This document shows positions 84 to 56,810 of a DNA stretch of 64,000 bases, one piece after another. The notes beneath the pieces are model-generated. The model was not told the DNA's origin. It did no database searches and was given only the letters and a program-made list of their open reading frames with translations. The position numbers and the translations under genes are program-made. Within the stretch, counting starts at the first letter, position 1; each line of letters opens with the position of its first letter. This DNA is from Pseudoalteromonas sp. MM1 (GTDB taxonomy: Bacteria > Pseudomonadota > Gammaproteobacteria > Enterobacterales > Alteromonadaceae). Location: the NCBI RefSeq assembly GCF_030296835.1, contig NZ_AP027922.1, forward strand, positions 558,001-622,000. Reading direction: 5' to 3'.

Positions 84-223
84 TTTTTACTTTGAACTTT
101 GACCTTTGAACTTTGAACTTTGACCTTTTTACTTTGAACTTTGACCTTTGACCTTTGACCTTTGACCTTTGACCTTTGAACTTTGACCTTTTTACTTTGA
201 CCTTTCACCTTTAATCTTTCAAC
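84..223 (+). repeat. Heptamer tandem array, TTTGACC/TTTGAAC type
   Basis: Twenty consecutive 7-bp units can be read from 84 to 223. They are mainly TTTGACC and TTTGAAC, with TTTTTAC recurring at about 84, 126 and 189 and decayed units (TTTCACC, TTTAATC, TTTCAAC) at the right end. The array fills the gap between the partial upstream gene and the epimerase and ends about 20 bp before its ATG. Its unit is the most divergent of the heptamer arrays in this window. Confidence 0.9.
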
Positions 224-244
224 TTTACCAAACTTAGGAATTTT

Positions 245-1249
245 ATGAAGTATTTAGTTACAGGTGCTGCGGGCTTTATTGGTGCTGCAACGTGCCAAAA
301 GTTATTGGCTGCAGGCCATGTAGTTGTTGGTATAGATAATCTAAACGATTATTACGATGTAAATTTAAAGTTGGCACGTTTAGCGCAGTTTGAAAACCAC
401 GATAACTTTACGTTTATTAAGCTTGATATAAGCGAACGTGCAGCAATGAGTGAGTTATTTACTGTAGAGCAGTTTGATAAAGTAATACATTTAGCTGCGC
501 AAGCGGGTGTACGCTATTCAATAGAAAACCCAGATGCCTATGCCGACTCTAACCTTGTAGGGCATTTAAATGTGCTAGAAGGGTGTAGGCATAACCATGT
601 TAAGCACCTAGTTTATGCATCATCAAGTTCTGTTTATGGCCTAAACGAAAAAACGCCGTTTGAAACAACCGATAGTGTTGATCATCCTGTTTCGTTTTAT
701 GCGGCAACCAAAAAAGCAAATGAGCTAATGGCACACAGCTATTCGCATTTATATAGCTTGCCGACCACTGGACTGCGCTTTTTTACGGTTTATGGCCCGT
801 GGGGTCGCCCAGACATGGCACCGTATATTTTTACTAAAAAAATACTCGACGGCGATACCATTGATATAAACAACAATGGTGATATGTGGCGTGACTTTAC
901 CTACATAGACGATATTGTAGAAGGTGTTGTACGCGCTGCTGATGTTATACCTACAGCAAACCCAGATTGGCGAGTAGAAAGCGGATCGCCTGCTACAAGC
1001 TCTGCCCCTTACGCTGTTTATAATATTGGCCACGGCAGCCCAATAAACCTAATGAAGTTTATTGAAGCAATTGAGACCGAGCTAGGTACCGAGGCAAATA
1101 AAAACTTCCGCGAAATGCAAGCAGGCGATGTTTATAAAACATATGCCGACACGCAAGATTTATTTAATGCGACTGGCTACAAAGCTCAAGTAGACGTTAA
1201 ACAAGGCGTTAGCGAGCTAATTAAATGGTATAAAAACTTTTATAAGTAA
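245..1249 (+). CDS. NAD-dependent epimerase, UDP-glucuronate 4-epimerase-like
   Basis: This is an extended short-chain dehydrogenase/reductase of 334 aa, the usual length for UDP-glucuronate 4-epimerases of capsule and O-antigen loci. The N-terminal Rossmann motif is VTGAAGFIGAATC (residues 5-17). It is followed by the catalytic serine block ASSSSVYG (about 124-131) and the YAATK Tyr-xxx-Lys pair (about 151-155). The early IDNLNDYYD stretch is typical of the UDP-GlcA/UDP-GalA epimerase branch. The predicted role is cytoplasmic interconversion of UDP-glucuronate and UDP-galacturonate for surface polysaccharide. It is co-oriented with galU, which supplies UDP-glucose, the precursor. An upstream TAGGAA supports the ATG. 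Exact substrate is inferred from resemblance only. Confidence 0.85.
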   Translation: MKYLVTGAAGFIGAATCQKLLAAGHVVVGIDNLNDYYDVNLKLARLAQFENHDNFTFIKLDISERAAMSELFTVEQFDKVIHLAAQAGVRYSIENPDAYADSNLVGHLNVLEGCRHNHVKHLVYASSSSVYGLNEKTPFETTDSVDHPVSFYAATKKANELMAHSYSHLYSLPTTGLRFFTVYGPWGRPDMAPYIFTKKILDGDTIDINNNGDMWRDFTYIDDIVEGVVRAADVIPTANPDWRVESGSPATSSAPYAVYNIGHGSPINLMKFIEAIETELGTEANKNFREMQAGDVYKTYADTQDLFNATGYKAQVDVKQGVSELIKWYKNFYK

Positions 1250-1260
1250 GCTTTATAGCG

Positions 1261-1296
1261 AAATAAACACTGCTTTTTTAAAAGCAGTGTTTATTT
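1261..1296. terminator. Perfect 17-bp palindromic terminator
   Basis: A perfect 17-bp inverted repeat (AAATAAACACTGCTTTT at 1261-1277) is separated from its complement by two bases. It lies 12 bp after the epimerase stop. The A- and T-rich outer arms would allow termination on either strand. Confidence 0.8.
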
Positions 1297-1318
1297 AAAA
1301 ATAGTTTAATTTACACTT

Positions 1319-1479
1319 TGATAGCTGATAGCTGATAGCTGATAGCTGATAGCTGATAGCTGATAGCTGATAGCTGATAGCTGATAGCTGATAGCTGATA
1401 GCTGATAGCTGATAGCTGATAGCTGATAGCTGATAGCTGATAGCTGATAGCTGATAGCTGATAGCTGATAGCTGACAGC
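1319..1479 (+). repeat. Heptamer tandem array, 22 x TGATAGC plus terminal TGACAGC
   Basis: Twenty-two uninterrupted identical TGATAGC units run from 1319 to 1472, closed by one variant unit TGACAGC (1473-1479). The array lies between the epimerase terminator and galU. The complementary strand is open in all frames and gives a spurious low-complexity ORF; the plus strand has a TGA in every unit. Confidence 0.95.
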
Positions 1480-1555
1480 TTCCCATTCATTCAGCCCCCA
1501 TCTACATTTAACCTGCTAAGTTAAAAATAATTAATTTATAAATAAAGGACTACCC

Positions 1556-2476
1556 ATGAAAGCTGTTATTCCTGTTGCTGGCCTTGGTACGCGTATGCTG
1601 CCTATGACTAAAGCAATCCCTAAAGAAATGCTACCAATTGTAGATAAGCCCCTAATTCAATACATAGTAAGTGAGTGTGTAGCTGCCGGTATTAAAGATA
1701 TTGTACTGGTAACGCATAGCTCTAAAAACGCTATAGAAAATCATTTTGATACTAGCTACGAGCTTGAAGCAACGCTTGAAAAACGCGTTAAGCGTGCTCT
1801 GCTTGAAGAAGTACGCTCTATTTGCCCTACCGATGTAACAGTTATGAGTGTACGCCAAGGCGAAGCTAAAGGCCTAGGCCACGCTATTTTGTGTGCAAAG
1901 CCAATTGTGGGCGATAACGATTTTATTGTACTGCTGCCAGATGTGATACTTGATGCTTACACAGCCGATCAAAAAACTGAAAACTTAGCAGCTATGATCA
2001 AACGCTTTAACGAAACTAAAGCAAGTCAAATTATGCTTGAGCCGGTAGCACAAGAAGATGTAAGTAAATACGGTATTGCTGATATAAACGGCGTGCAATT
2101 AACGCCAGGCAACAGTGCGGCAATTAAAACCATGGTTGAAAAGCCAGAGGCTGATAAAGCGCCTTCAAACCTTGCTGTAGTAGGGCGTTATGTACTAAGC
2201 AAAAACATTTGGCCACTGCTTGCTAAAACACCAGTAGGTGCTGGTGGTGAAATACAATTAACCGACTCTATTGATGAGCTAATGAAGAAAGAAACCGTTG
2301 AAGCGTTTCACATGAGTGGCCGCTCGCACGACTGTGGCGATAAGCTAGGCTACTTAAAAGCAATTGTAGAATACGGAATGCGCGATACTAAGCTTGGTAA
2401 CGATTTTGGCCAATACTTAACGTCGTTAGTTAACGATGAGCCAGCTGCGCAATCTGATAATGTTGTAAATTTATAA
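1556..2476 (+). CDS. galU: UTP--glucose-1-phosphate uridylyltransferase
   Basis: GalU makes UDP-glucose from UTP and glucose 1-phosphate in the cytoplasm, feeding capsule, LPS and the galE/epimerase reactions. The nucleotidyltransferase signature lies at the N-terminus: AGLGTRMLP (about 8-16), then [18 protein letters not shown] (about 19-36). The 306-aa length is normal for bacterial GalU. The ATG is preceded by AAAGGA at about 1543. The gene is separated from the upstream epimerase by a terminator and a heptamer array, so it probably has its own promoter. A GC-rich terminator follows. Confidence 0.95.
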
Positions 2477-2502
2477 TATTGTAGAATCTATATTATTTAT
2501 AA

Positions 2503-2527
2503 GCGCGGCTATTTGCCGCGCTTTTTT
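2503..2527 (+). terminator. Rho-independent terminator of galU
   Basis: A GCGCGGC / GCCGCGC stem with the loop TATTT is followed by a run of six T. It lies 27 bp after the galU stop. The hairpin resembles one of the REP-like hairpins found further on (the GCGGC-TTTAT-GCCGC type). Confidence 0.85.
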
Positions 2528-2569
2528 GTGGGTGTATGTATTTTGGCTGACAGCCAGCTATTGTGCTCT

Positions 2570-2800
2570 GCGTGAGCAAGCTTCACGCCTACAAAGAATT
2601 TAAAGCATTCATTCACAAAGAGGTTAAGAGACGCTGTGCTATAGAGGGTAACGTTGTAGGCGCCTTGCTTGCTGACGCAATTAGGCTTTATACAGCATTG
2701 AAATAATAAATTTAAACGCGAGGAAAACTCGCTGCTACTTATATGTTTTCTCATTTACTCCTCTTTTGCTTCTCTTTGTGCAATAGGCTTTTAAGTAACT
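2570..2800. repeat. REP-like hairpins and a decayed copy of the 163-bp unit
   Basis: A GCGTG/CACGC hairpin ending in CTAC lies at 2570-2592. A GTAG-headed GGCGCC..TGACGC hairpin follows near 2656. A GCGAGGAAAACTCGC hairpin ending in CTAC follows near 2715-2740. Between them is a diverged copy of the AAGAGGTTAAGAG spacer of the tandem repeat that begins at 2801. No gene is supported here; the 81-aa minus-strand ORF spanning it is made of repeat sequence. Confidence 0.75.
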
Positions 2801-3530
2801 TATTCACTAAGAGGTTAAGAGGCGCTGCGCTTTAGAGGGGAACGCTGTAGTCGCGGCTTTATGCCGCGTTAAGGCTAAACGCGAGGAAAACTCGCTACTA
2901 CTTAAATGCCTTACTCATATACTCCTCTTTTGCTTCTCTTTGTGCAATAGGGTTTTAAGTAACTTATTCACTAAGAGGTTAAGAGGCGCTGCGCTATAGA
3001 GGGGAACGCTGTAGTCGCGGCTTTATGCCGCGTTAAGGCTAAACGCGAGGAAAACTCGCTGCTACTTATATGTTTTCTCATTTACTCCTCTTTTTCTTCT
3101 CTTTGTGCAATAGGCTTTTAAGTAACTTATTCACTAAGAGGTTAAGAGACGCTGCGCTTTAGAGGGGAGCGCTGTAGCAGCGGCTTTATGCCGCGTTAAG
3201 GCTAAACGCGAGGAAAACTCGCTGCTACTTATATGTTTTCTCATTTACTCCTCTTTTGCTTCTCTTTGTGCAATAGGGTTTTAAGTAACTTATTCACAAA
3301 GAGGTTAAGAGACGCTGCGCTCTAGAGGGTAACGTTGTAGTCGCGGCTTTATGCCGCGTTAAGGCTAAACGCGAGGAAAACTCGCTGCTACTTATATGTT
3401 TTCTCATTTACTCCTCTTTTTCTTCTCTTTGTGCAATAGGCTTTTAAGTAACTTATTCACTAAGAGGTTAAGAGACGCTGCGCTTTAGAGGGGAGCGCTG
3501 TAGTCGCGGCTTTATGCCGCGCTTTTTTGT
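2801..3530. repeat. Tandem array of a ~163-bp REP-containing unit
   Basis: The landmark TATTCAC starts at 2801, 2965, 3128, 3291 and 3454, a period of 163-164 bp. Each unit contains a GTAG-headed GCGGC-TTTAT-GCCGC hairpin, an inverted GCGAG..CTCGC hairpin ending in CTAC (as at 2847-2901), and a spacer with CTCTTTGTG facing CACAAAGAG or CACTAAGAG. Units differ by scattered substitutions. The array fills most of the galU-wzi gap, and no coding region is supported in it. Confidence 0.9.
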
Positions 3531-3569
3531 GGATGTATATATTTGGTTAGTACCAAGTTATTATGTTTT

Positions 3570-3660
3570 GTGTGAGCAAGCTTCACGCCTACATAGGTTT
3601 TATGCTCGGAGTATATTGTTATTTTGTAGGCGCTTGCTTGCTGGCGCACTTAGGCTAAAT
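3570..3660. repeat. REP-like pair
   Basis: A TGTGAGCAAGCTTCACG hairpin ending in CCTAC (3570-3592) is followed by a GTAGGCGC..GGCGCA hairpin near 3630-3655. They are copies of hairpin types seen elsewhere in the window and lie between the tandem array and the wzi-family gene. Confidence 0.7.
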
Positions 3661-3705
3661 TTAAGCTTTTAGAAGCAAAGCTTTAAGGTGCGCCTTTAAT
3701 AAACT

Positions 3706-5148: not shown

Positions 5149-5375
5149 AATTATTCCGTTAGCAAAAAATTGTTTAAGTAAAAAACGTTAATGCGAGGTT
5201 AGCAATAAATAACTAAGTAAGAAAGAGAAAGACTCACCCTATGTAGATAATTACCAGCTATTTTAAGTAAGCGCCTTATTTGTAGCCCAAATGAGCTTTA
5301 GGCTAAGTTTTATTTTATAGGCCGCAGTTTGGTGGCATATTTGTAATTTATTATGCATATATATTGATGCAAAAC

Positions 5376-6031
5376 GTTTTACGCGAGGTAAACTCGCTGC
5401 TACATGTATGTTTTTTATTTACTCCTCTTTTGCTTCTCTTTGTGCAATAGGGTTTTAAGTAATTTATTCACAAAGAGGTTTAGAGGCGCTGCGCTTTAGA
5501 GGGGAACGCTGTAGTCGCGGCTTTATGCCGCGTTAAGGCTAAACGCGAGGAAAACTCGCTGCTACTTGCATGTTTTCTCTTTTGCTTCTCTTTGTGCAAT
5601 AGGGTTTTAAGTAATTTATTCACAAAGAGGTTTAGAGGCGCTGCGCTTTAGATGGTAGCGTTGTAGGCGCCTTGCTTGCTGGCGCACTTAGGCTTTATGC
5701 CGCGTTAAGGCTAAACGCGAGGAAAACTCGCTGCTACTTGCATGTTTTCTCTTTTGCTTCTCTTTGTGCAATAGGGTTTTAAGTAATTTATTCACAAAGA
5801 GGTTTAGAGACGCTGCGCTTTAGATGGTAGCGTTGTAGGCGCCTTGCTTTCTGGAGTTTAAAGGTAGTGCTTTTACAGTGGTTATTATATTTTAAAGCCA
5901 TGAGAAGCTTCGCTTCTAACGTGAGCAAGCTCTACGTCTACAGCCCAAATAAGCTCTGAAGCTAAATTTATTGTAGGCGTCTTGCTGCATAGTATAGATA
6001 TTTCAATTGCGTGAGCAAGTTTCACGCCTAC
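5376..6031. repeat. Second REP/163-bp-unit cluster
   Basis: Three more copies of the REP-containing unit have TATTCAC landmarks at 5465, 5617 and 5789. Their spacings of 152 and 172 bp reflect loss of part of the spacer and insertion of a GTAGGCGCC-type hairpin. Further hairpins follow near 5919-5941 (ending GTCTAC) and 6009-6031 (ending CCTAC). The preceding stretch 5149-5375 shows no gene and probably holds the promoter of the wzi-family gene. No coding region is supported between 5149 and 6240. Confidence 0.85.
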
Positions 6032-6086
6032 GAATAAAATATAACCGTATTTATTGTAAACGCGATGCTTAATAATTTATTCTGGC

Positions 6087-6177
6087 TAACAGCTAACAGC
6101 TAACAGCTAACAGCTAACAGCTAACAGCTAACAGCTAACAGCTAACAGCTAACAGCTAACAGCTAACAGCTAACAGC
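6087..6177 (+). repeat. Heptamer array, 13 x TAACAGC
   Basis: Thirteen identical TAACAGC units run from 6087 to 6177. They are preceded by AATTTATTCTGGC and followed by TATT. The same flanks and the same unit number recur at 10750-10840 with TAACCGC units. Confidence 0.95.
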
Positions 6178-6247
6178 TATTTTTCTTGCATAAAGTTGGT
6201 TTTTTGTTAACCTACCTGCCTTCCTTTTTTAGCTTGTTGGGGTGTAT

Positions 6248-7021
6248 ATGGCGTTGTTATCTCGTTCGATATTGGCGTTGTGTTTAGCACTTTCAAGTTC
6301 TGCAGTTTTAGCTCAGTCGCAGTGCGATGTTGAGTTGAGTCATGGCTTAATAATTACCGACGACGTTATACGTATTCTTGATAAAGGCCAAACCCGCGTG
6401 CAAATTAATAATAATAACCAGCTATTTATTCGTGGTTATTGGGTTGATTTAAGCACAGAAGAAAGCAAAGTACTTGAGCAATTTAGTAATGGTATTCGCC
6501 ATACCGTGCCTGAGCTTGTTAACTTAGCCACCGATGGGGTTAACTTAGGTTTAAGCGCCATTGAACATGTGGTTGAGGGGATGTCTGATAAAGAGCCAGA
6601 GGTACTAAAAACCCAGCTCCAGTACGTAGAGCGGGCGCTTATGGATAAATTTAAGCGCGGTGATGACTTCTTTTTTATCGCTCCTCAGTCGCTCTCGCAA
6701 ATAGATGACTTTTTCACTAAAGAAATTAGCCAACAAATACATTCTGCCGTACATGGCTCGTTAGGCGCTATTTTAATGTCGCTTGGTGATGCATTTAAAT
6801 CACGCGAAGGTAATATTGAAGACCGCATTAACGACATGGGCCAACGTATGAATATTATCTCTAAAGAAATAGATAAATCACTACAAAAAAAGGCCCAGCA
6901 ACTTGAGCTTAAAGCCTCAGAATATTGCGAATGTTTAAACGCACTTGATGTGACCGAATCGCGCTTGCAAGCGATAGTGCCTGGCATGGCTGACTTTGAT
7001 TTAGTGCAGATAAAATCGTAA
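6248..7021 (+). CDS. yggN: YggN-family (DUF2884) periplasmic protein
   Basis: This matches the DUF2884/YggN family of secreted proteins of unknown function. The protein starts with a signal peptide (MALLSRSILALCLALSSS, cleavage near VLAQ-S) and contains a CDV motif just after it and a CECLNAL motif near the C-terminus, a possible disulfide pair. The middle is predicted helical. I chose the ATG at 6248 because GGGG at 6239-6242 sits 5 bp upstream; an in-frame GTG at 6242 would overlap that site. It is flanked by heptamer arrays on both sides. Function is unknown; family membership is from recognition of the overall sequence. Confidence 0.75.
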   Translation: MALLSRSILALCLALSSSAVLAQSQCDVELSHGLIITDDVIRILDKGQTRVQINNNNQLFIRGYWVDLSTEESKVLEQFSNGIRHTVPELVNLATDGVNLGLSAIEHVVEGMSDKEPEVLKTQLQYVERALMDKFKRGDDFFFIAPQSLSQIDDFFTKEISQQIHSAVHGSLGAILMSLGDAFKSREGNIEDRINDMGQRMNIISKEIDKSLQKKAQQLELKASEYCECLNALDVTESRLQAIVPGMADFDLVQIKS

Positions 7022-7032
7022 GGAAAGTGAGG

Positions 7033-7172
7033 GTTATAAGCTATAAGCTGTTAGTTATCAGCTATCAGCTGTTAGTTATCAGCTGTTAGTTATTAGTTAT
7101 TAGTTATTAGTTATCAGTTATCAGCTATCAGTTATCAGTTATCAGCTATCAGTTATCAGTTATCAGCTATCA
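7033..7172 (-). repeat. Heptamer array, mixed GTTATCA/GCTATCA/GCTGTTA units
   Basis: Twenty 7-bp units are readable on the plus strand as GTTATCA, GCTATCA, GCTGTTA and GTTATTA, which are TGATAAC, TGATAGC, TAACAGC and TAATAAC on the minus strand. The last nine form a 21-bp higher-order repeat (GTTATCA, GTTATCA, GCTATCA) three times. This is the only long array in the opposite orientation. It lies between yggN and the four-helix-bundle gene. Confidence 0.9.
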
Positions 7173-7252
7173 GTTTTAGGCTTTAATTGCGTTTAGGGTT
7201 TCTATTTCTTCAATTACTTCTAAGCTAAAAGTAAATAGTTAGGATTAAATCC

Positions 7253-7646
<394 letters not shown>

Positions 7647-8345
7647 CTATAGTTTAACCTCTCCCTCTTTTAACTCTCTATACTCTCCACTTGCTAAGTT
7701 TTCATCCAGTATAATATTACCTATTTGCTCGCGGTGTAGCTCTACCACTTTGTTGCCTACTGAGGCTAACATGCGTTTAACTTGGTGATATTTACCTTCA
7801 CTGATTGATAAACGTAAGCTGTAGGTGGCAAGTGCTTCTGCTTTAGCTGGGCGAGTGAGACCTTTTTCGTTGTGAAGTTGTACGCCGTTACGTAGTTGCT
7901 CTAATGCGTCTTCGGTTATAGGCTCTTGGGTTTCTACTAAGTAGGTTTTTAATTTGTTGTGCTTTGGCGAGGTTATACGGTGCGACCAATCGCCATCGTT
8001 TGTAATGAGTACTAAGCCGGTGGTGTCTATATCTAGGCGACCTGCTACATGAAAGTCGGCCATATTTGGCTCATCGAGTAAATCAAATACGGTGGGGTGT
8101 AGCTCATCTACATTTGCACATACATAGCCTACAGGTTTGTGTAGCATAAAGTAGCGCTTGCCTAAAAATACCAAAGGCTCACCAGCAAATGTTACTTCAT
8201 CTTGCAGGGTTATCTGAAAATCGAACGCGGTAACCGTTTCCCCATTTACTTGCACTTCTTGGCGCTTAATTGCAGCGCGTGCTTTTGAGCGTGGTAGCTC
8301 TGCTAGGTGGCTAATAAATTTATCTAAGCGGCAGGGGAATTTCAT
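7647..8345 (-). CDS. rsuA: 16S rRNA pseudouridine(516) synthase
   Basis: RsuA isomerises U516 of 16S rRNA. An S4 RNA-binding domain opens the protein (MKFPCRLDKFISHL..RSKARAAIKRQEVQVNG, about 1-35). It is followed by the synthase core with the GRLDIDTTGLVLITNDG block, whose Asp (about 103) is the catalytic residue. The C-terminal QVKRMLASVGNKV motif is typical of the RsuA/RluB/E/F group. The 232-aa length agrees with RsuA. It is a stand-alone gene on the minus strand, and its 3' end abuts a heptamer array. Confidence 0.9.
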   Translation of the reverse strand: MKFPCRLDKFISHLAELPRSKARAAIKRQEVQVNGETVTAFDFQITLQDEVTFAGEPLVFLGKRYFMLHKPVGYVCANVDELHPTVFDLLDEPNMADFHVAGRLDIDTTGLVLITNDGDWSHRITSPKHNKLKTYLVETQEPITEDALEQLRNGVQLHNEKGLTRPAKAEALATYSLRLSISEGKYHQVKRMLASVGNKVVELHREQIGNIILDENLASGEYRELKEGEVKL

Positions 8346-10730: not shown

Positions 10731-10749
10731 ATTTGGAATTTATTCTGGC

Positions 10750-10840
10750 TAACCGCTAACCGCTAACCGCTAACCGCTAACCGCTAACCGCTAACCGCTA
10801 ACCGCTAACCGCTAACCGCTAACCGCTAACCGCTAACCGC
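10750..10840 (+). repeat. Heptamer array, 13 x TAACCGC
   Basis: Thirteen identical TAACCGC units span 10750-10840, preceded by GAATTTATTCTGGC and followed by TATT. The flanks and the unit count match the TAACAGC array at 6087-6177; only one base of the unit differs, and it differs in all 13 units. Confidence 0.95.
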
Positions 10841-11007
10841 TATTATTTAATCAAGCTACATTATTAACCTTACATGTACCTACTTTACATTAAAAATTTT
10901 TGCTGCTAATTTAAACTACTGTTATCAGTGTGAGTTTTCAGGTTTATTGACTTAAATTGAATGTGCTGTACTTGCGTTGACTTTTGATAGTTCACATGGA
11001 GACGATT

Positions 11008-11573: not shown

Positions 11574-11633
11574 AACGCGGTGTTTTTTAATATTTAACTG
11601 ACAACTGACAACTGACAACTGACAACTGACAAC
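11574..11633 (+). repeat. Half-terminator plus 5 x TGACAAC array
   Basis: AACGCGGTGTTTTTTAAT (11574-11591) is the right half of the terminator hairpins at 15474 and 25777 but has no left half here. It is followed by five TGACAAC units (11599-11633), which end 2 bp before the stop codon of the minus-strand gene at 11636. Confidence 0.85.
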
Positions 11634-11635: not shown

Positions 11636-11926
11636 TTATTTAAACGTAGCGAGCAGGGTAAGTAACTGTTGCAGTTTAATAACCGCTTTTTTAAGCTTTT
11701 CTTCATCAAAACCATCAGTGCTTAAGCTTTCTACATCGGCTGCTACATCAAGTACGTATGGCTTAAAACGTTTAGCTTCAAAACTAAATCCGGCATCGGC
11801 TGGGAATAAGGCTTTAAATTTACCGTGGCCTTGTTGCTGTAGTTCATCTAGTTTTTTGTCGGCATCAAGTGCTTGGCGATAAACAATTTTTAAGTTAGCG
11901 TTGAGTTGTTCAATTATAGAATCCAT
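11636..11926 (-). CDS. Small helical hypothetical protein
   Basis: This is a 96-aa protein that I do not recognise. It is predicted mostly alpha-helical with charged heptad-like stretches (RQALDADKKLDELQQQG near residues 17-33 and DEEKLKKAVIKLQQLLTLL near 74-92), and it has no signal peptide or membrane segment. Codon use is like its neighbours and the ATG is followed by a normal reading frame, so a real gene is likely. It is divergent from the small gene at 12009, 82 bp away. The stop codon sits directly beside a TGACAAC heptamer array. A coiled-coil or protein-binding role is only a guess. Confidence 0.6.
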   Translation of the reverse strand: MDSIIEQLNANLKIVYRQALDADKKLDELQQQGHGKFKALFPADAGFSFEAKRFKPYVLDVAADVESLSTDGFDEEKLKKAVIKLQQLLTLLATFK

Positions 11927-15510: not shown

Positions 15511-15520
15511 AATCTTAAAC

Positions 15521-15596
15521 TGACAACTGACAACTGACAACTGACAACTGACAACTGACAACTGACAACTGACAACTAACAGCTAAAACTAACAGC
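15521..15596 (+). repeat. Heptamer array, 8 x TGACAAC plus TAACAGC tail
   Basis: Eight TGACAAC units (15521-15576) are followed by TAACAGC, a 6-base TAAAAC and another TAACAGC. The array ends 5 bp before the stop codon of the minus-strand TonB-dependent receptor. Confidence 0.9.
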
Positions 15597-18726: not shown

Positions 18727-18837
18727 TGATATGAGTATTTGAGGTTGCCTCTTGCAGGCAATTTTTAACTGGCGTACACTCAGCGTAGATTTGCTAAAAA
18801 ACAATGGTAAATCAACGAACAAATTTTATATATTTTA

Positions 18838-18926
18838 CTTGTCGGAGTGCCTTAACTCGTTAAGGCTGAGATCGCGAAAGCGGGATCCGTGAACCTGATC
18901 AGGTTAAAACCTGCGTAGGGAACAAG
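18838..18926 (+). promoter_or_regulatory. TPP riboswitch (THI element)
   Basis: The aptamer consensus is complete: CTTGT/ACAAG closing stem (18838 and 18922-18926), CGGAGTGCC, GGCTGAGATCGCG, GGATCCGTGAACCTGATC and the final AAACCTGCGTAGGGAA. It lies 156 bp upstream of thiC and should shut off the operon when thiamine pyrophosphate is abundant. Confidence 0.97.
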
Positions 18927-18939
18927 CTGCCTAAAATGG

Positions 18940-21034: not shown

Positions 21035-21050
21035 CGCAGCTTTGAGCATT

Positions 21051-21132
21051 AGCTGTCAGTTATCGGTAATAAAGTAAGTAACATAGAGGCAATAGTTGCT
21101 TTACTGACAGCTGAAAACTGATGGCTATGGGC
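21051..21132. repeat. Two short decayed heptamer runs in inverted orientation
   Basis: AGCTGTCAGTTATCGG at 21051 reads on the minus strand as heptamers CGATAAC and TGACAGC. From 21105 the plus strand reads TGACAGC, TGAAAAC, TGATGGC, TATGGGC. The AGCTGTCAGT and ACTGACAGCT parts form a 10-bp inverted repeat about 40 bp apart. It lies inside the thi operon between thiC and thiO. Confidence 0.6.
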
Positions 21133-25815: not shown

Positions 25816-25824
25816 ATCTTTAAC

Positions 25825-25887
25825 TGACAACTGACAACTGACAACTGACAACTGACAACTGACAACTGACAACTGACAACTGACAGC
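25825..25887 (+). repeat. Heptamer array, 8 x TGACAAC plus terminal TGACAGC
   Basis: Eight TGACAAC units (25825-25880) end with a TGACAGC variant (25881-25887). The next base, 25888, begins the stop codon of psd on the minus strand. Confidence 0.95.
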
Positions 25888-26766
25888 TTACTGCTCTTCA
25901 CTTTCTTTAATTGTTGCAAATGCGGTGTTTAAACGCGTTACTGTTTCTGGCAGTTGGTCGTCTAAAATGTCTGCTTTATCTGCACCCCATGCTAGTACTA
26001 CTGTTGAGCCTAGTTTAAAGCGGCCCATTTCTTCCCCTTTTTTAAGGGTGATGGCGTTTTCGCCTTTAGTTGGGTAGTTCCAGCTAAATACATCGCTACC
26101 AGCGGGTGGCGTTACTGTGCCTGCCCATACGGTCTCTATGCTGGCAACAATGGTTGCGCCTACAAGTACCATAGCAAGTGGGCCAATTTCGGTTTCAAAA
26201 ATAGCCACTACACGCTCGTTACGAGCAAATAAATTTGGCACATTTTGCGCAGTGAGTGGATTTACCGAAAATAAGTCGCCCGGTACATAAATCATTTTAC
26301 TTAGTGTACCGTCTATTGGCATATGAATACGGTGATAGTCTTTTGGCGCTAAATAAATAGTCGCAAATTTACCACCTAAAAAGGGGGTAGTGTCGTCTTC
26401 AGAGCCGCCTAATAGCGCTTGTAGGCTGTAGTCATGACCTTTTGCCTGTATTAGCTGCCCATCAACAATGTCACCCAGTTGGCTAATTGCACCATCTACA
26501 GGGTGAGTAATAATGTTGTCACCCTCGGCCATTGGTCGTACGCCGTCTTTTAATGGGCGAGTAAAAAACTCATTAAATGTTTTATAATGGGCGGGGTCTG
26601 AATATTTAGCCTCATTCATGTCTATTTTATATTGCTTAATAAACAATTTGATTAGCGTTGTAGTTAATGCACCCGCTTTAGCTGCTGCTAGTTTTCCTAC
26701 TACGCGTGAAATAAAGTGCTTTGGCATTGCGTACTGCATTGCAATTTTAAATTTGTCTAAACTCAC
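25888..26766 (-). CDS. psd: Phosphatidylserine decarboxylase proenzyme
   Basis: Psd makes phosphatidylethanolamine from phosphatidylserine at the inner membrane. The self-cleaving LGST motif lies at about 252-255 ([12 protein letters not shown]); Ser becomes the pyruvoyl group. Other blocks are FFTRPLK (about 69-75), [11 protein letters not shown] (catalytic Asp, about 87-97) and KDYHRIHMP (catalytic His, about 142-150). The 292-aa length is normal. It is 15 bp downstream of rsgA, as in many gammaproteobacteria, so the two are probably cotranscribed. Confidence 0.95.
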
Positions 26767-28705: not shown

Positions 28706-28763
28706 CCTGCCCCGCTCAAGACGATAACCCCTGCGGGGTTGGTGTGTTTGAGTAAGTTATAAA

Positions 28764-28994
28764 GCGGCACTAGCTCAGTTGCCAGAACGTAGGACGCGAC
28801 CCGTCGCGTACCAACGGACAAATTACTGACTAACTATAAAGCGGCACTAGCTCAGTTGCCAGAACGTAGGACGCGACCCGTCGCGCACCAACGGACAAAT
28901 TACTGACTAACTATAAAGCGGCACTAGCTCAGTTGCCAGAACGTAGGACGCGACCCGTCGCGTACCAACGGACAAATTACTGACTAACTATAAA
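28764..28994 (+). repeat. Three 77-bp tRNA-Gly-like partial units
   Basis: Units start at 28764, 28841 and 28918. Each begins with the first 18 bases of tRNA-Gly (GCGGCACTAGCTCAGTTG) and then departs into CCAGAACGTAGGACGCGACC..GTCGCG, with a GCGAC-CC-GTCGC-like stem. They keep exact 77-bp phase with the true tRNA at 28995. They lack an anticodon arm and 3' acceptor strand, so they cannot be tRNAs. Confidence 0.9.
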
Positions 28995-29070
28995 GCGGCA
29001 CTAGCTCAGTTGGTAGAGCGCGACCTTGCCAAGGTCGAGGTCACGAGTTCGAGCCTCGTGTGCCGCTCCA
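28995..29070 (+). tRNA. tRNA-Gly (GCC), copy 1
   Basis: This is a 76-nt cloverleaf with acceptor strands GCGGCAC and GTGCCGC, D arm AGCTCAGTTGGTAGAGC, anticodon stem CGACC/GGTCG with loop TTGCCAA (anticodon GCC), T loop GTTCGAG and encoded CCA. It decodes GGC/GGU. Confidence 0.97.
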
Positions 29071-29128
29071 ATTTCTCACCAAAAGAAATTGGAATAGCGT
29101 ATAGCTCATAAAATTTATAGTTCATAAA

Positions 29129-29282
29129 GCGGCACTAGCTCAGTTGCCAGAACGTAGGACGCGACCCGTCGCGCACCAACGGACAAATCACTGAGTAACT
29201 ATAAAGCGGCACTAGCTCAGTTGCCAGAACGTAGGACGCGACCCGTCGCGCACCAACGGACAAATTACTGACTAACTATAAA
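29129..29282 (+). repeat. Two 77-bp tRNA-Gly-like partial units
   Basis: Units start at 29129 and 29206, of the same design as those at 28764. The spacing to the tRNA at 29283 is again exactly 77 bp. Confidence 0.9.
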
Positions 29283-29358
29283 GCGGCACTAGCTCAGTTG
29301 GTAGAGCGCGACCTTGCCAAGGTCGAGGTCACGAGTTCGAGCCTCGTGTGCCGCTCCA
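29283..29358 (+). tRNA. tRNA-Gly (GCC), copy 2
   Basis: The sequence is identical to copy 1, including anticodon GCC and encoded CCA. Confidence 0.97.
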
Positions 29359-29400
29359 ATTTCTTACCAAAAGAAATTGTACAAATATATAGTTTATAAA

Positions 29401-29554
29401 GCGGCACTAGCTCAGTTGCCAGAACGTAGGACGCGACCCGTCGCGCACCAACGGACAAATCACTGAGTAACTATAAAGCGGCACTAGCTCAGTTGCCAGA
29501 ACGTAGGACGCGACCCGTCGCGCACCAACGGACAAATTACTGACTAACTATAAA
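29401..29554 (+). repeat. Two 77-bp tRNA-Gly-like partial units
   Basis: Units start at 29401 and 29478, in 77-bp phase with the third tRNA. The block of two partials plus one tRNA repeats the block at 29129-29358 nearly exactly, so it arose by duplication. Confidence 0.9.
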
Positions 29555-29630
29555 GCGGCACTAGCTCAGTTGGTAGAGCGCGACCTTGCCAAGGTCGAGG
29601 TCACGAGTTCGAGCCTCGTGTGCCGCTCCA
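29555..29630 (+). tRNA. tRNA-Gly (GCC), copy 3
   Basis: The sequence is identical to copies 1 and 2. It is the last tRNA of the cluster. The following 184 bp up to yjbQ contain no gene or clear terminator that I can see. Confidence 0.97.
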
Positions 29631-45982: not shown

Positions 45983-45993
45983 GGTGCTTTTTA

Positions 45994-48162: not shown

Positions 48163-48164
48163 AA

Positions 48165-49460: not shown

Positions 49461-49552
49461 ATTCTTTTTACTACTCTTCTAATAGTACTGCTTTAAAACA
49501 GGGCGTACTGCATTTTAGGGCTTTAAAGTATCACCTTAATTGCTCGTTTGCC

Positions 49553-51805: not shown

Positions 51806-51906
51806 TTATCGACCTTAATGCTCTTTGGTTTATTATAAGCTAGACATAATAAAGGAAAACAATGGCAAATACAGTAATTGACCTATAAAAATAGACATCT
51901 TATATA

Positions 51907-52908: not shown

Positions 52909-53567
52909 AAGCCATGATTTTAGCGGCTGGGCGTGGTCAGCGAATGATGCCGCTTACGCAAGCTATGCCTAAACCTATGCTAAAAGTGGCGGATAAACCG
53001 CTGATTGAGCACCATATTAATAACCTTAAAGCCGCTGGCATTACTAACATTGTTATAAACCTAGCTTGGCAAGGGGATAAAATAAAAAGCTATTTTAAAA
53101 ATGGCGCTGAGTTTGGTGTGAGCATTGAATATAGCCAAGAGGCTGAGGGCGGCCTAGAAACCGCAGGCGGAATTATTCAGGCGCTACCATTACTAGGTGA
53201 GCAATTTATTGTGATTAATGGCGATGTATATACTGATTACGATGTGAGTGCGCTTACACAGCTGCACCTGCAAGACGGCGAGGCCCACATAGTGTTGGTA
53301 GAAAACCCACCTCATAACGAAAAAGGGGATTTTGCGTTAAGTCACTTATCGGCTGAGAGCCAAAAGTATACGTTTTCGGGAATTAGCCGTTACCACGCTA
53401 ATTTTTTTAAAGGGTTAGAGCCTGGCATACGCCCGCTTGGGCCAATATTGAGAGAAAAGCTCGCCCAACAGGTTATCTCAACTGAGCTTTATATTGGTCA
53501 GTGGGACGATATAGGCACACCACAGCGGCTCACCCAGCTCAACGAGCGCATACAAAACACACTTTAA
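52905..53567 (+). CDS. murU: N-acetylmuramate alpha-1-phosphate uridylyltransferase
   Basis: MurU converts MurNAc-1-P to UDP-MurNAc, bypassing de novo synthesis and so conferring intrinsic fosfomycin tolerance in organisms with this route. The start is the ATG at 52905 within the amgK stop region, giving 220 aa; an upstream open frame is an overlap artefact. Nucleotidyltransferase signature MILAAGRGQRMMPLTQAMPK (3-22), then KPMLKVADKPLIEHH, and VINGDVYTDYD (metal site). Confidence 0.93.
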   Translation: MKAMILAAGRGQRMMPLTQAMPKPMLKVADKPLIEHHINNLKAAGITNIVINLAWQGDKIKSYFKNGAEFGVSIEYSQEAEGGLETAGGIIQALPLLGEQFIVINGDVYTDYDVSALTQLHLQDGEAHIVLVENPPHNEKGDFALSHLSAESQKYTFSGISRYHANFFKGLEPGIRPLGPILREKLAQQVISTELYIGQWDDIGTPQRLTQLNERIQNTL

Positions 53568-53584
53568 TAGAGGCAGTTAATTAG

Positions 53585-54442
53585 ATGTGGGGAAAAATAC
53601 TCGGTTTTTGTTTTGGCTTTATGTTTGGCAAAATTTTTGGCGCCATTTTAGGTTTATACCTCGGCCATTTATTTGATAAAAGCCTAAAAAACGACTTTGA
53701 TAAAGCCGGGGGCTTTTCAGGTTTGTTTAAAGGTGATGATGTAAACGAGCGCCAAGCGTTGTTTTTTTCGAGCTGCTTTGCGGTTATGGGGCATATTGCA
53801 AAGTCGAACGGTCGCGTAAGTGAGGTGCATATAAAAGCGGCAAGTATGTTTATGGATGAAATGGGGCTAAAGGGCGATGAGCGCCGCGAAGCTCAGCATG
53901 CATTTCAATCAGGTAAAGATAGCGACTTTTCGATTAAAGAAACAGTGCATGACTTTAAAGAACGCTTTGCAAAACGTTACGACTTACTGCAACTGTTTTT
54001 AGAAATTCAAATTCAAATGGCGTTTTCTGATGGTGTGCTCGCCGAGCAAGAAAAACAGCTGTTACAAGAGGTAAGTAAGCAATTAGGTATTTCTAAAACC
54101 CATTTTGCTTTTATTCTTAAGCGCTACCAAGCTGAATTTAGTTTTAGACAGCAGCAACAACAGCATAGGCAGCAGCAAGGTCAAAGTAGCAGTTACCGTG
54201 AAGGGTCTGGCCATCATGTGCCCCCTAATAACAGCATGAACCGTTCACAAGCCTTGGCTTTATTAGGGTTAAATAGTGATGCAACGCAACGAGACATTAA
54301 AGTAGCGTATCGTAAATTAATGGCGCAGCATCACCCTGATAAATTAGTATCTCAAGGGCTGCCTAAACACATGATGGAAGTGGCGGTTAAAAAAAGCCAA
54401 GACATACAAGCAGCTTACGAGTATTTAAAAAAGGCGGCGTAA
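53585..54442 (+). CDS. djlA: Membrane-anchored co-chaperone DjlA
   Basis: DjlA is a DnaK co-chaperone anchored by one N-terminal glycine-rich membrane segment (GKILGFCFGFMFGKIFGAILGLYLG, 3-27, with the family's Gly-spaced dimerisation pattern). A TerB-like helical domain follows (about 55-180), then a Gln-rich linker, and a C-terminal J domain (about 220-285) with the HPD motif in AQHHPDKL. The 285-aa length is normal. It follows murU by 17 bp and overlaps the convergent DUF3530 gene by 18 bp. Confidence 0.95.
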   Translation: MWGKILGFCFGFMFGKIFGAILGLYLGHLFDKSLKNDFDKAGGFSGLFKGDDVNERQALFFSSCFAVMGHIAKSNGRVSEVHIKAASMFMDEMGLKGDERREAQHAFQSGKDSDFSIKETVHDFKERFAKRYDLLQLFLEIQIQMAFSDGVLAEQEKQLLQEVSKQLGISKTHFAFILKRYQAEFSFRQQQQQHRQQQGQSSSYREGSGHHVPPNNSMNRSQALALLGLNSDATQRDIKVAYRKLMAQHHPDKLVSQGLPKHMMEVAVKKSQDIQAAYEYLKKAA

Positions 54443-55360
54443 AAAGCCGTCTATTTCTTTGCTTAAACGTGCATGTTGCTCTGGCGCATCACGCAGGCCA
54501 AACAGTTGGCGCTGGCGGTAATCAAATTTAGCATTACGATTTACCCAGCGCTGACGGTTTTTTAGGCTCATAAGTATATCGGTATTATCATTTGCATAGT
54601 AAATATCAAGTAACGCTGGGGTAACCAGTGATGTGGTTTGGCTTAAACTTTCATTACGCTGTGTATTGGGTAAATAACTGCTTAAGCTAATAAATGCATT
54701 AATTTGCGAGTCTGGAAAATCTGCATAGTACTCCATTAACACACCCGCACTGGCTCCTTGGGCTATCACTACAATATTATTAGGCTCGCTCATAGCACGT
54801 TGATAAAGTGCCTCATAACGCAATATTAAGTTAGTTTTATAGTTGTTAAGCACCGCATTACTTACCGAGTCAATTGCATTTACATAGTGCGGCTCAGTAT
54901 TGGGCTTTGGTGCTTCTGACTCGCTATTTTTTTGCTCAGTTTGCTCTTGCGCCGCGTTTTGTTGCGCTTCGCTAGGGGCTTGCATATCGCTGGCTTGCCA
55001 ATCTATGTCAGGCACTGTCATCGCGTAAGTGGTATAACCTAAATTATTCAGCTCCTTTCGAAGATAGCTCATGCCAGTGTTATTACTTGGAGTTGAGTTC
55101 CAATCGGGTATAAGTAACGCAACCCCTCTAAAGTCGCGGCTCATATACTCGCTGTAAAGGCTTAAAAACTCGGTATCACCAGCAAGTATTGGCTTTATTT
55201 CATCATTTGGTAAGAAACGTTTTATATCAGTGTTTTCTATTGTCGACAGGGCGGGCGGCGAAATATGATCAATTGCATTACTAGGGCTGCCAATTAACAA
55301 CCCACAAGCCAGCAGTAGGTTAACTAATACGGGTTTTAAAAATCGCGCTAATATCATCAC
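54425..55360 (-). CDS. DUF3530 family secreted protein
   Basis: This 311-aa exported protein is of the DUF3530 family. It has a signal peptide (FLKPVLVNLLLACGLLIGSPSNA), an FRGVALLIPDWNSTPSN block (about 73-89), a Gln/Glu-rich low-complexity insert (about 125-152) and a VVIAQGASAGVLMEYYADFP block (about 197-216) that looks like an alpha/beta-hydrolase nucleophile elbow. Function is unknown; a hydrolase-like fold is an inference from the elbow and the LDIYYANDNTDI loop. Confidence 0.75.
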   Translation of the reverse strand: MMILARFLKPVLVNLLLACGLLIGSPSNAIDHISPPALSTIENTDIKRFLPNDEIKPILAGDTEFLSLYSEYMSRDFRGVALLIPDWNSTPSNNTGMSYLRKELNNLGYTTYAMTVPDIDWQASDMQAPSEAQQNAAQEQTEQKNSESEAPKPNTEPHYVNAIDSVSNAVLNNYKTNLILRYEALYQRAMSEPNNIVVIAQGASAGVLMEYYADFPDSQINAFISLSSYLPNTQRNESLSQTTSLVTPALLDIYYANDNTDILMSLKNRQRWVNRNAKFDYRQRQLFGLRDAPEQHARLSKEIDGFLRRLF

Positions 55361-55414
55361 AAGCTCTAATAAATACCATTACTTAGCTATCGGCGCGAAG
55401 GATAAAAAGTTTAG

Positions 55415-56065
55415 TTAAAAATCAGGCTCGGCTTCAAAAGTAAGCACTTGCTCGCTCACAGGGTGCTTTAGTTGAAGCATTTGAGCATGCAGTTGTAAAC
55501 GCGGTGCAGCTGCAAGCGCCTCTTTGTGGGCATAGAGCCTGTCACCTAAAATAGGATGACCAAGGCTTAACATATGTACACGTAATTGGTGGGATCGCCC
55601 TGTAATGGGTGTTAGCTCCACGCGGGTAGCAAATGCTTCGCGCGTGAGTATTTTGTAATGCGTAAGCGATGGTTTGCCATTTTCATGATCAACCATTTGT
55701 TTAGGGCGGTTAGGCCAATCGCAAATAAGCGGTAAATCTACAGAGCCATTTTCTTCAAGCTGCCCATAAACACGCGCAATATAACGCTTTGCTGTTTCGC
55801 GTTCTTGAAATTGCATACTTAAATGCCTATGCGCTGCTTTATTCATGGCCAAACACAGTATGCCTGAGGTTGCCATATCTAAGCGGTGCACTATTTTAGC
55901 TGTAGGAAAAACACGGTTAACGCGGCTAATTAAGCTATCGGCATGTTTTGGATCTTTACCTGGGACGGTTAAAAGTTCGCTGGGCTTATTAACGATGAGC
56001 AAGTCGTCATCTTGATACAGTATTGTTAAATACGGACTCATTGGGGGATTGTAGTTAACTAACAC
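55415..56065 (-). CDS. rluA: Dual tRNA U32 / 23S rRNA U746 pseudouridine synthase
   Basis: RluA makes pseudouridine at U32 of several tRNAs and U746 of 23S rRNA. The catalytic block HRLDMATSGIL (about 60-70) is intact, preceded by NKPSELLTVPGKDPKHADSL and followed by TPITGRSHQLRVHM. There is no S4 domain, as expected for RluA, and the 216-aa length fits. The true start may be the second Met (MSPYLTILY, 56041). Confidence 0.92.
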   Translation of the reverse strand: MLVNYNPPMSPYLTILYQDDDLLIVNKPSELLTVPGKDPKHADSLISRVNRVFPTAKIVHRLDMATSGILCLAMNKAAHRHLSMQFQERETAKRYIARVYGQLEENGSVDLPLICDWPNRPKQMVDHENGKPSLTHYKILTREAFATRVELTPITGRSHQLRVHMLSLGHPILGDRLYAHKEALAAAPRLQLHAQMLQLKHPVSEQVLTFEAEPDF

Positions 56066-56160
56066 GGCCGACCTCAGTAATTTTGCAGGGCGCTATTTTA
56101 GTGGAGCGAGCGCAAAGCCTCAAGGGAAAAGGTAAAAGTTTAATTGCATGCTTTTTAATC

Positions 56161-56178
56161 TGGTGTAAAATTACACCA
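56161..56178. promoter_or_regulatory. Palindromic operator upstream of parDE
   Basis: TGGTGTAAAATTACACCA is an inverted repeat with 8-bp arms and a 2-bp centre, about 24 bp before the antitoxin ATG. It contains a TGTAAAAT -10-like box. Ribbon-helix-helix antitoxins usually repress their own operon through such sites. Confidence 0.7.
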
Positions 56179-56201
56179 ACCTAAAGTTATGGGAACATAT
56201 T

Positions 56202-56429
56202 ATGGCAAGGCAAAGTATTTCACTTACTGAACAAAATGATTTATGGCTACGTAATCACGTTGAAAACATAGGTGATTATGCTAATAAAAGTGAATTGGTG
56301 AACGATTTAATTCGCCGTGCAAGAAGGGCTGAAGCTATAAACAGTAAGCTTGCTCACTCAGAAAAAAGCGATTTTAACGCTCAATCTGCCGATCAAATGT
56401 TAGTAGAATTTAAAGCAAGCATTAAGTAG
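56202..56429 (+). CDS. parD: ParD-family antitoxin
   Basis: This is a 75-aa ribbon-helix-helix antitoxin. The N-terminal strand MARQSISLTEQNDLWL is followed by helices with YANKSELVNDLIRRARR (about 27-43), the ParD/CC2985 pattern. The C-terminal half is a charged, likely disordered toxin-binding segment. GGGAA precedes the ATG and a palindromic operator lies upstream. Its stop overlaps the toxin start by one base. Confidence 0.92.
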   Translation: MARQSISLTEQNDLWLRNHVENIGDYANKSELVNDLIRRARRAEAINSKLAHSEKSDFNAQSADQMLVEFKASIK

Positions 56430-56716
56430 TGCGCACATTTAAGCTTTCAAACGATGCCAAAGAGGATTTACGTCGCATTTATCAATATGACTGTCACGCA
56501 TTTTCACAACAGCAAGCGGATAATTATTTTTATAGTTTCTTCTCTATGTTTGAAAAACTAGCAGCAAATCCTTATTCATACCAATCAGTTGATCATATAC
56601 GCACAGGCTATCGACGTGCCGTTTGTGGCTCGGACAGCATTTATTACAGAATTACAGAAACTGATGTTGAAATAATGGCTATATTAGGTGGCCAAGATAC
56701 AGATGAGTGGTTCTAG
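56429..56716 (+). CDS. parE: ParE-family toxin
   Basis: This 95-aa RelE/ParE-superfamily toxin is expected to poison DNA gyrase. Visible features are KLSNDAKEDLRRIYQYDCHAF (5-25), FSMFEKLAANPYSY (about 38-51) and a C-terminal YYRITETDVEIMAILGGQD (about 72-90). The start is GTG at 56429 inside the antitoxin stop (TAGTG). The pair appears intact and is followed by a terminator. Confidence 0.92.
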   Translation: MRTFKLSNDAKEDLRRIYQYDCHAFSQQQADNYFYSFFSMFEKLAANPYSYQSVDHIRTGYRRAVCGSDSIYYRITETDVEIMAILGGQDTDEWF

Positions 56717-56726
56717 AGGTGAATGT

Positions 56727-56755
56727 AAAAAGCACGGCCTGTAAACCGTGCTTTT
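56727..56755. terminator. Terminator between parE and rapA
   Basis: AAAAGCACGG faces CCGTGCTTTT, 10 bp after the parE stop, between convergent genes. Confidence 0.8.
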
Positions 56756-56782
56756 AAAATTGTAGTTTAGCTACACCTGATC

Positions 56783-56810
56783 TAACGACTGACAGCTATA
56801 AACTGAAAGC
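56783..56810 (+). repeat. Short decayed heptamer run
   Basis: TAACGAC, TGACAGC, TATAAAC and TGAAAGC are four consecutive 7-mers that fit the general heptamer pattern but are no longer identical. They lie 11 bp from the rapA stop codon. Confidence 0.5.

Follow-up and report, generated by a model that had tools for sequence, protein, structure and literature searches.

Why does a bacterial chromosome carry, at one intergenic site after another, nearly uniform tandem arrays of a seven-nucleotide unit, and what decides the direction in which they point? The question is raised by a 64 kb stretch of Pseudoalteromonas sp. MM1 (C1:558001-622000, hereafter the window), whose genome comprises 4.49 Mb in two contigs, C1 and C2. 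Nine arrays with a period of 7 bp were found in the window by Tandem Repeats Finder (TRF) together with reading of the letters, and eight of them are built from units of the form TRAYMRC. The original prediction had reported such arrays, and this observation was confirmed: TRF recovered its exact 7-bp-period arrays, with the starts it gave correct within 5 bp. Its interpretation was partly supported. The comparison of array orientation with replication direction that it had suggested was carried out, and gave the main result described here, a leading-strand polarity of the arrays.

Replication polarity

Throughout this work the G-rich strand was taken as the leading strand, and origins were taken from GC skew. 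Over 68 stretches of C1 (window included) the skew had a single internal sign change, near 1.89 Mb, which places the origin near 0 and the terminus near 1.89 Mb. Of the 13 stretches sampled on C2, the second replicon of the same genome (G000), 12 had a positive skew, which is what unidirectional replication would give. Arrays of fewer than 3.5 copies and TRF rows overlapping a better period-7 row were dropped. The polarity counts further exclude arrays whose unit fits TRAYMRC at fewer than seven of seven positions or whose purity is below 95%, and these excluded groups are given apart wherever they were counted. Stretches outside the MM1 genome were chosen for strong matches to R1, a sequence-only profile made from the window arrays; this choice favours neither orientation.

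In 81 stretches of the MM1 genome (1.66 Mb, window included; hereafter the MM1 sample), TRAYMRC lay on the leading strand in all 14 pure arrays, on both replichores. Over all fetched stretches, from 14 genomes, 58 of 62 pure TRAYMRC arrays were in the leading orientation by coordinates and 59 of 62 by local skew. When homologous loci were merged by flank, 30 of 32 loci were leading (p = 2.5e-7). This strict clustering still merges 10 arrays into one cluster, so that loci are undercounted. It replaced a first clustering in which flanking repeats had joined unlinked arrays (19 clusters: 17 concordant with the leading strand, 1 discordant and 1 mixed, p = 7e-4). The earlier statement that almost all arrays are in plus orientation is thus true of the window, which lies on one replichore, but the strong arrays of the other replichore are minus. 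Judged from sequence data, such a near-complete leading-strand polarity of pure TRAYMRC arrays appears to be new; among the papers listed by keyword searches of open-access PubMed Central (PMC), no title or abstract opening described a replication polarity of heptamer arrays.

TRAYMRC describes the family in the window, as had been proposed; the genus has several heptamer families, of which it is the commonest. In the 14 closely sampled genomes (MM1 included) other pure heptamers comprised GAACCTC, GAACCCC, TGACGGC, TAACCTT and others, the longest array being about 92 copies of GGTTCAA in G126. With homologous loci unmerged, TGACGGC arrays had the opposite orientation in 8 of 8 cases, and GAACCTC arrays pointed one way in 7 of 8.

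The gene context was read from simple calls of open reading frames (ORFs), with the arrays drawn pointing right and homologous loci unmerged. Among the 62 pure arrays, 24 lay between co-directional genes running the same way and 2 between co-directional genes running the opposite way, 19 between convergent and 8 between divergent genes; the remaining arrays were 8 within reverse-frame ORFs and 1 at a contig edge. Convergent and divergent sites offer no gene-direction cue, yet 24 of these 27 arrays follow the leading strand by local skew, so gene direction is not the explanation. The two arrays that oppose their genes are a single homologous C2 locus, and they follow replication. In all 8 pure arrays inside called ORFs the frame is on the opposite strand and is kept open by the repeat itself; short ORFs predicted within arrays are probably spurious.

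Purity and orientation

The polarity was found to be coupled to the uniformity of the arrays. In the fetched stretches 59 pure arrays were concordant and 3 were not, as against 1 and 9 of the impure arrays (Fisher p = 2.5e-8). In the MM1 sample, pure arrays were 14 leading and 0 lagging and heterogeneous runs 3 leading and 9 lagging (p = 7e-5); over the whole MM1 genome the figures were 15 and 0 for pure arrays and 6 and 18 for other heptad matches (p = 2.2e-6). Outside fetched stretches purity was assigned from the profile score alone. The genome-wide heterogeneous count consists of 23 profile matches up to E = 0.031 (hand-copied) plus the mixed array at 565.0 kb, and omits two pure arrays at 2.715 Mb with a 6/7 fit. 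This mixed array is the one at 7033 in the window, which had been described as reversed; it is so, and it belongs to this class of impure, mostly opposite-facing runs.

Heptad elements as a whole are therefore about equally common in both orientations of the MM1 genome (21 leading, 18 lagging), and the pure and long ones are leading only. This speaks for expansion or survival that depends on orientation, and against insertion with an orientation bias. The occurrence of uniform long arrays almost only in the replication-facing direction points to direction-dependent expansion rather than to a regulatory code.

The heterogeneous run at C1:1337533 consists of single units in series, of kinds that form pure arrays elsewhere. 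Among pure arrays, variant units tended to gather at the right end (11 versus 2, p = 0.02), a weak result based on 13 rows hand-picked from a list. At three places in the MM1 genome (L079:9736, L116:17533 and L093:7417) a heterogeneous heptad run has a REP-like palindrome (GTTGGGTTTCG...ACCCAACCTAC) no more than about 100 bp away.

T-run at the left boundary

In the reading direction of the array, TTT was present in the 6 nt adjoining the array on its left at 17 of 32 loci (p = 1.9e-7), against a background of 13.9% among 122,996 intergenic 6-mers from the same stretches. The right flank had TTT at 8 of 32 loci (p = 0.07). By inspection, many left T-runs belong to intrinsic terminators, for instance those at 11596, 15518 and 25822 in the window; others are promoter or leader DNA.

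Homologous sites in other genomes

One window protein had Pseudoalteromonas sp. P1-25 (100%) and P. atlantica (99%) as its closest named relatives. The array at 6085 in the window has 13.6 copies; in P. sp. P1-25 its counterpart, between flanks of 98 and 99% identity, has 9.6, which bears out the expectation that related strains carry the arrays with differing copy numbers. Where the window has the mixed run at 7033, P. sp. P1-25 has a pure array of 6.9 copies of TGATAGC (flanks 99 and 96%). In P. atlantica the right flank of the 1319 array is preceded by just one CTGATAGCT, in place of the 23 copies. At another locus G008 has CAGCTGATAGCTAT after the same T-run where G020 has 9 and G124 has 17 copies. 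Two further homologous sites have 3-4 copies in another genome, and one homologous locus has 10, 27 and 81 copies in three genomes. Arrays were seen again at homologous sites of separate assemblies, two-contig genomes among them, which speaks against arrays restricted to one strain or produced by assembly error.

Proposed mechanism

The explanation we favour, and to which we would give about an even chance, is that heptad seeds expand in place and become homogeneous almost only when TRAYMRC is on the newly made leading strand, often after a T-run. Such seeds, present in both orientations, would be only about 1 to 2 units long, in the typical case RCT...RCT with a spacing of 7 bp. Past a T-run the leading-strand polymerase would pause, and the nascent 3' end could unpair and re-pair one heptamer back, extruding a loop of 7 nt. 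Loops of 7 nt exceed the size that MutS repairs well. Such a loop would evade mismatch repair and be fixed as one extra unit; once a few units were reached, growth would become runaway, ending at 5 to about 90 copies, with variants swept out, whereas seeds in the opposite orientation would remain short and heterogeneous. The support, all of it drawn from sequence, comprises the period of 7, the leading polarity, the left T-run, the coupling of purity with polarity, the copy and unit differences between near-identical strains and some low-copy homologous sites. We infer slippage as the process, the leading strand as its site, a mechanical role for the T-run, and arrays that have no selected function.

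Several findings weigh against expansion in place. Two of the 32 pure loci are discordant, one common to G032, G068 and G124 and the other a TGACAGC/TGACGGC array in G012; the pure discordant array of G068 follows its lagging-strand genes by coordinates. TAACCTT arrays showed no clear polarity (pure, 3 versus 2), and of the two pure 6/7-fit arrays at 2.715 Mb one points each way. The MM1 sample holds no exact run of three copies, which fits runaway growth and equally the transfer of whole blocks. The evidence on array birth appears mixed: among 13 homologous rows in another state, 5 had low-copy or partial units and 8 had none (5 of these 8 being one TTATAGC locus), and the low-copy sites could be contractions instead of seeds.

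Nor does the model account for the choice of unit. Seed abundance was rejected as its cause, since only 15 single copies of CTGATAGCT lie outside arrays in the MM1 sample, where about 13 are expected for a random 9-mer. As a rule for the polarity, strand structure failed: the leading-strand unit was the more structured one in 52 of 104 pure arrays, the less structured in 46 and equal in 6. Two further candidates were discarded. The leading-strand unit had at least 4 A+C in 48 of the 104 arrays and fewer in 56, so it is not regularly A+C-rich. Primase CTG sites on the lagging template, by inspection, fit TGATAGC, TGACCGC and TGACAAC and fail for TAACMGC, GAACCTC and the TGACGGC class.

Predictions for further genomes had been fixed beforehand, namely that at least 85% of pure arrays would be concordant, that about half would have a T-run and that impure ones would chiefly point in the opposite direction. 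In this held-out set, from which rows with identical flanks were dropped, all TRAYMRC arrays were pure. In 8-kb stretches (n = 10), 9 of 10 pure arrays were concordant, but at loci with 1.5-3 kb of sequence the count was 9 of 14, so that the pooled figure of 18 of 24 (p = 0.02) was short of 85%. The sign of GC skew was correct for 127 of 134 MM1 pieces of 8 kb and for 342 of 402 pieces of 3 kb, and is a poor guide at 3 kb or less. By flank, three of the six misses resemble the already-known discordant locus; two are at the ends of contigs, where 1.5 kb of sequence was available. Of the 24 held-out arrays, 19 are homologous to discovery loci; of the five loci that have no discovery homologue, 3 were concordant and 2 discordant. 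The T-run was present in 7 of 19 (p = 0.011), rarer than in the discovery set. Held-out TGACGGC arrays were again opposite (5/5). The polarity prediction was borne out where the strand call was good, but not for the pooled set.

Alternative explanations

The remaining point against expansion in place is the sharing of flanks, which makes dispersal a serious rival, though on balance a somewhat unlikely one. Here template switching at T-runs, or spread together with a repeat element lying to the left, would copy arrays with a strand preference. Among 215 same-genome pairs of pure TRAYMRC arrays, which are not independent of each other, 19 shared a flank, in every case the left one, and in 6 of the 19 the sharing extended to within 25 bp of the array. 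In no pair were both flanks shared, and 196 of the 215 shared none. Left-only sharing is not predicted by the in-place model. Arrays may tend to form next to a dispersed repeat with a terminal T-run, or else the left side may join in array copying. Dispersal would also suit the TGATAGC arrays at many unlinked sites despite the few single copies, the lack of exact three-copy runs and the homologous rows that have no unit in the other genome (8 of 13). It fares less well with the low-copy units at several homologous sites and with heptad elements about as common in one orientation as in the other, and the shared left flank may simply be a family of T-run-bearing repeats beside which arrays arise. 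Pure arrays with partly homologous left flanks and non-homologous right flanks occur in MM1 at C1:534426, 564085, 568748, 573518 and 583822, and the same was seen within G012 at C1:498919, 500217 and 3382962.

Arrays of both orientations might instead expand, those whose complement is the lagging-strand template being quickly deleted or broken up. Such orientation-dependent loss predicts the same steady state as orientation-dependent gain, and lagging-oriented heptad runs do exist, short and mixed. With TGACCGC, with TAACCGC and with the TGACGGC class the leading-strand unit is the less structured strand, but TGATAGC, the commonest unit, is slightly more structured on the leading strand, so that a single hairpin rule fails; moreover, two pure discordant loci persist, one of them in several genomes. 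We regard loss as rather unlikely.

It is quite doubtful that the arrays are selected regulatory elements, acting as 5'-UTR or 3'-UTR (untranslated region) spacers or as protein or RNA binding sites that tune neighbouring genes. Their placement would be in keeping with such a role, at least by simple ORF calls and with loci unmerged: for 20 of the 24 same-way co-directional pure arrays the next start codon follows within 150 bp, and in 14 of 18 convergent concordant cases the head-on gene has its stop codon no more than 20 bp from the array (in 3 of 18 the other gene does). Arrays are also retained at some loci in several genomes. However, their orientation tracks replication even between convergent genes, the copy number ranges from about 5 to about 90, 64 of the 108 genus genomes have no match to the profile, and the 20 scanned ORFs of the window have no common function. 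A role as stop-codon insulator had been considered, since TRA puts stop codons into every frame of the TRAYMRC strand; it was rejected because head-on genes often precede arrays, and their frame is open.

Telomerase-like addition by an RNA-templated reverse transcriptase, as in DRT10 defence systems, is very improbable: polar tandem addition after the 3' end of a T-run does resemble primer extension, and RVT_1 (PF00078) matches are more frequent in array-bearing than in array-free genus genomes (30/44 versus 27/64, p = 0.011), but 14 of the 44 array-bearing genomes have no RVT_1 match, for which a dependence on reverse transcriptase was rejected, and seven of these (G104, G105, G108, G124, G015, G099 and G100) nonetheless have 18 to 46 profile matches each, while DRT10 is described in passages of PMC12632851 as making 9-nt repeats by protein-primed cDNA synthesis.

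Arrays of the window

Three TRAYMRC units in a row gave 82 overlapping matches in the window and none in 100 dinucleotide-preserving shuffles, so the arrays are denser than random sequence would give. By reading of the letters, the window TRAYMRC arrays contain no GGG tract.

The first array (89-227, plus strand), about 18 copies of TTTGAMC with 82-84% matches, is the one that does not fit TRAYMRC; it is preceded by ATCTTTTTA. At 1319-1480 (plus) follow 23 copies of TGATAGC in the leading orientation, the last unit being TGACAGC, and the next co-directional ORF begins 75 bp on. The TAACAGC array at 6085-6179 and the TAACCGC array at 10748-10842 have 13.6 copies each, are on the plus strand in the leading orientation and have the left flank AATTTATTCTGG in common. 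The mixed array at 7033-7175 (minus, lagging orientation) holds about 20 units of TGATAAC, TGATAGC, TAACAGC and TAATAAC and lies just past the stop codon of ORF 6242-7021.

Eight copies of TGACCGC in the leading orientation occupy 7590-7646 (plus). This array contains one stop codon, that of ORF 7253-7606, whose last 17 bp it covers, and borders directly on another, that of the head-on ORF 7647-8345; the description of the arrays as intergenic therefore applies to most and not strictly to all. ORF 7253-7606, whose stop codon lies within the array, is a gene for a 23S rRNA-intervening-sequence protein (PF05635).

Three arrays are of TGACAAC on the plus strand. The one at 11596-11633 (5.4 copies) follows the terminator-like T-run GCGGTGTTTTTT and ends 2 bp from the end of the head-on ORF 11636-11926, which had no Pfam match. 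The one at 15518-15594 is preceded by a terminator-like hairpin and T-run; its left part is pure and its right part has variant units, e.g. TAACAGC. The third, 9 copies at 25822-25885, lies between the terminator-like hairpin ACCGCGTTTGTAATAAACGCGGTGCTTTTTT (by eye) and a stop codon, that of the head-on phosphatidylserine decarboxylase gene 25888-26766.

The two runs that had been called decayed are weak. Within 21049-21132, two short heterogeneous heptad runs face each other, at 21049-21064 on the minus strand (E = 0.27) and at 21104-21126 on the plus strand (E = 0.025). The run ACTGACA-GCTATAA-ACTGAAA-GCT at 56783-56812 (plus) was recognised by eye only, from RCT at 7-bp spacing; the profile gave no match at 56785 up to E = 0.5.

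Distribution in the genome, genus and phylum

In the MM1 sample, exact runs of at least 4 copies numbered 20 at period 7, 1 at period 6 and 1 at period 8, and none was found at periods 4, 5, 9, 10, 11 or 12. The run lengths at period 7 were bimodal: 89 runs of two copies (any sequence), zero of three, then runs of 4-49 copies. The sole period-6 run of at least 3 copies in the sample is a perfect hexamer array, 12.5 copies of AATCTC at C1:477289-477363 (L105). Over the whole MM1 genome 194 exact four-unit matches were found (138 forward, 56 reverse), and 16 arrays account for them.

The R1 profile matched 44 of 108 genus genomes at E<=1e-3, MM1 included. Four exact units were present in 17 of 60 relatives; among 398 phylum genomes, 12 had them (MM1 included in both). 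A control with the reversed pattern matched 6 of 60 relatives and 6 of 398 phylum genomes, MM1 not among them; beyond the genus the pattern is therefore only slightly commoner than by chance. TGATAGC, TGACCGC and others predominate among the fetched arrays, and TGATAGC, the commonest, occurs at many unlinked sites. The unit TGATAAC is the consensus of just 2 fetched arrays, both impure.

Relation to known heptamer repeats

The arrays were claimed to form an extended family of internally homogenised heptamers that recalls those of cyanobacteria, and both claims stand. Heptamer tandem repeats are a known kind, and the closest are the TAACTGA repeats and the G-rich heptamers of Xanthomonas and Nostoc. 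The present arrays show the features of heptamer long simple sequence repeats (LSSRs), or variable number tandem repeats (VNTRs), with period-7 runs beyond chance and copy number varying between close strains. The STRR heptamers of Calothrix, from the work of Mazel et al. in 1990, reportedly have the units CCCCART, TTGGTCA and CAACAGT; by eye, no such rotation class is present among the unit classes here. Calothrix STRR are mentioned as tandem heptamers in a passage of PMC4692102.

TAACTGA direct repeats were described in Beggiatoaceae, cyanobacteria and Bacteroidetes (MacGregor 2015, PMC4679880). According to the passages of that paper considered here, they are, like the window arrays, heptameric, intergenic and tandem (rotated, TAACTGA is TGATAAC, one of the units at 7033), and they show indels in 7-nt steps between close strains, as here. 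A repeat query, LSVISYQ, matched 12 Pseudoalteromonas sequences. In the main Beggiatoaceae genome the repeats have two to six copies, lie mostly just before start codons in the forward direction and were proposed there as regulatory; TAACTGA is the prevailing unit, kindred heptamers being seldom repeated. In a Microcystis sample eight between-stop repeat sets share one orientation, and those passages hold no replication-strand test. The arrays described here differ in having about 5-90 copies, in their orientation with replication, in being often bounded by a T-run and in using several units, TGATAGC, TGACCGC and others predominating rather than TAACTGA. As to placement, 24 of the 62 pure arrays are co-directional in gene orientation (20 of them within 150 bp of a start) and 19 are convergent.

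The GGGAATC repeats of Xanthomonas and the GGGGAYT repeats of Nostoc are, in the relevant passages of PMC4692102, G-rich with quadruplex potential, and four units are commonest. They share with the present arrays a mostly intergenic location, often near stops and sometimes in facing pairs; G-tracts of that sort are absent from the window TRAYMRC arrays. The Xanthomonas heptamers are stated there to have no leading or lagging preference, the opposite of what was found here (30 of 32 loci leading). Mrazek and co-workers, as summarised in PMC4679880, described long simple repeats of prokaryotes with an excess of period 7, as here, and proposed slippage; the summary mentions no polarity, T-run or link between purity and orientation.

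Other repeats and elements in the window

At 28758-29630 there are three tRNA-Gly(GCC) genes, each after 2-3 tandem units of 77 bp. These units open like the 5' part of the tRNA (GCGGCACTAGCTCAGTTG) and then diverge (CCAGAACGTAGGACGCGACCCGTCGCG...), and they look like truncated tRNA pseudo-copies repeated in the leader. Five tandem units of 163 bp (2713-3521, 94% matches) and a related-looking 172-bp pair (5519-5854), both with CTAAACGCGAGGAAAACTCGC or nearly so, flank a Wzi-like capsule assembly gene; in P. atlantica a repeat similar by eye occupies the place of the 15518 heptamer array. A TPP riboswitch was found at 18833-18938, upstream of thiC and the subsequent thiamine genes.

Significance

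From the papers considered here, no agreed reason emerges for the dominance of heptamers among long bacterial repeats. With their near-complete polarity, their T-run boundary and the link between polarity and homogeneity, the present arrays are a natural set over many genomes and loci, and through them the question of how heptamer repeats arise can be put to the test in bacteria that grow in culture. Discussions of repeat instability usually centre on the lagging strand; these arrays suggest that expansion can be linked to leading-strand synthesis. We tentatively raise the possibility that part of Pseudoalteromonas has a trans-acting, strand-specific activity of heptamer expansion, either a property of the leading-strand machinery or a dedicated enzyme acting on nascent leading-strand 3' ends after T-runs, by which heptad seeds of favoured sequence that arose by chance would grow into long, pure arrays. 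If so, the arrays would be a chromosome-wide record of replication direction, and the array-free genomes of the genus would be those that lack the activity.

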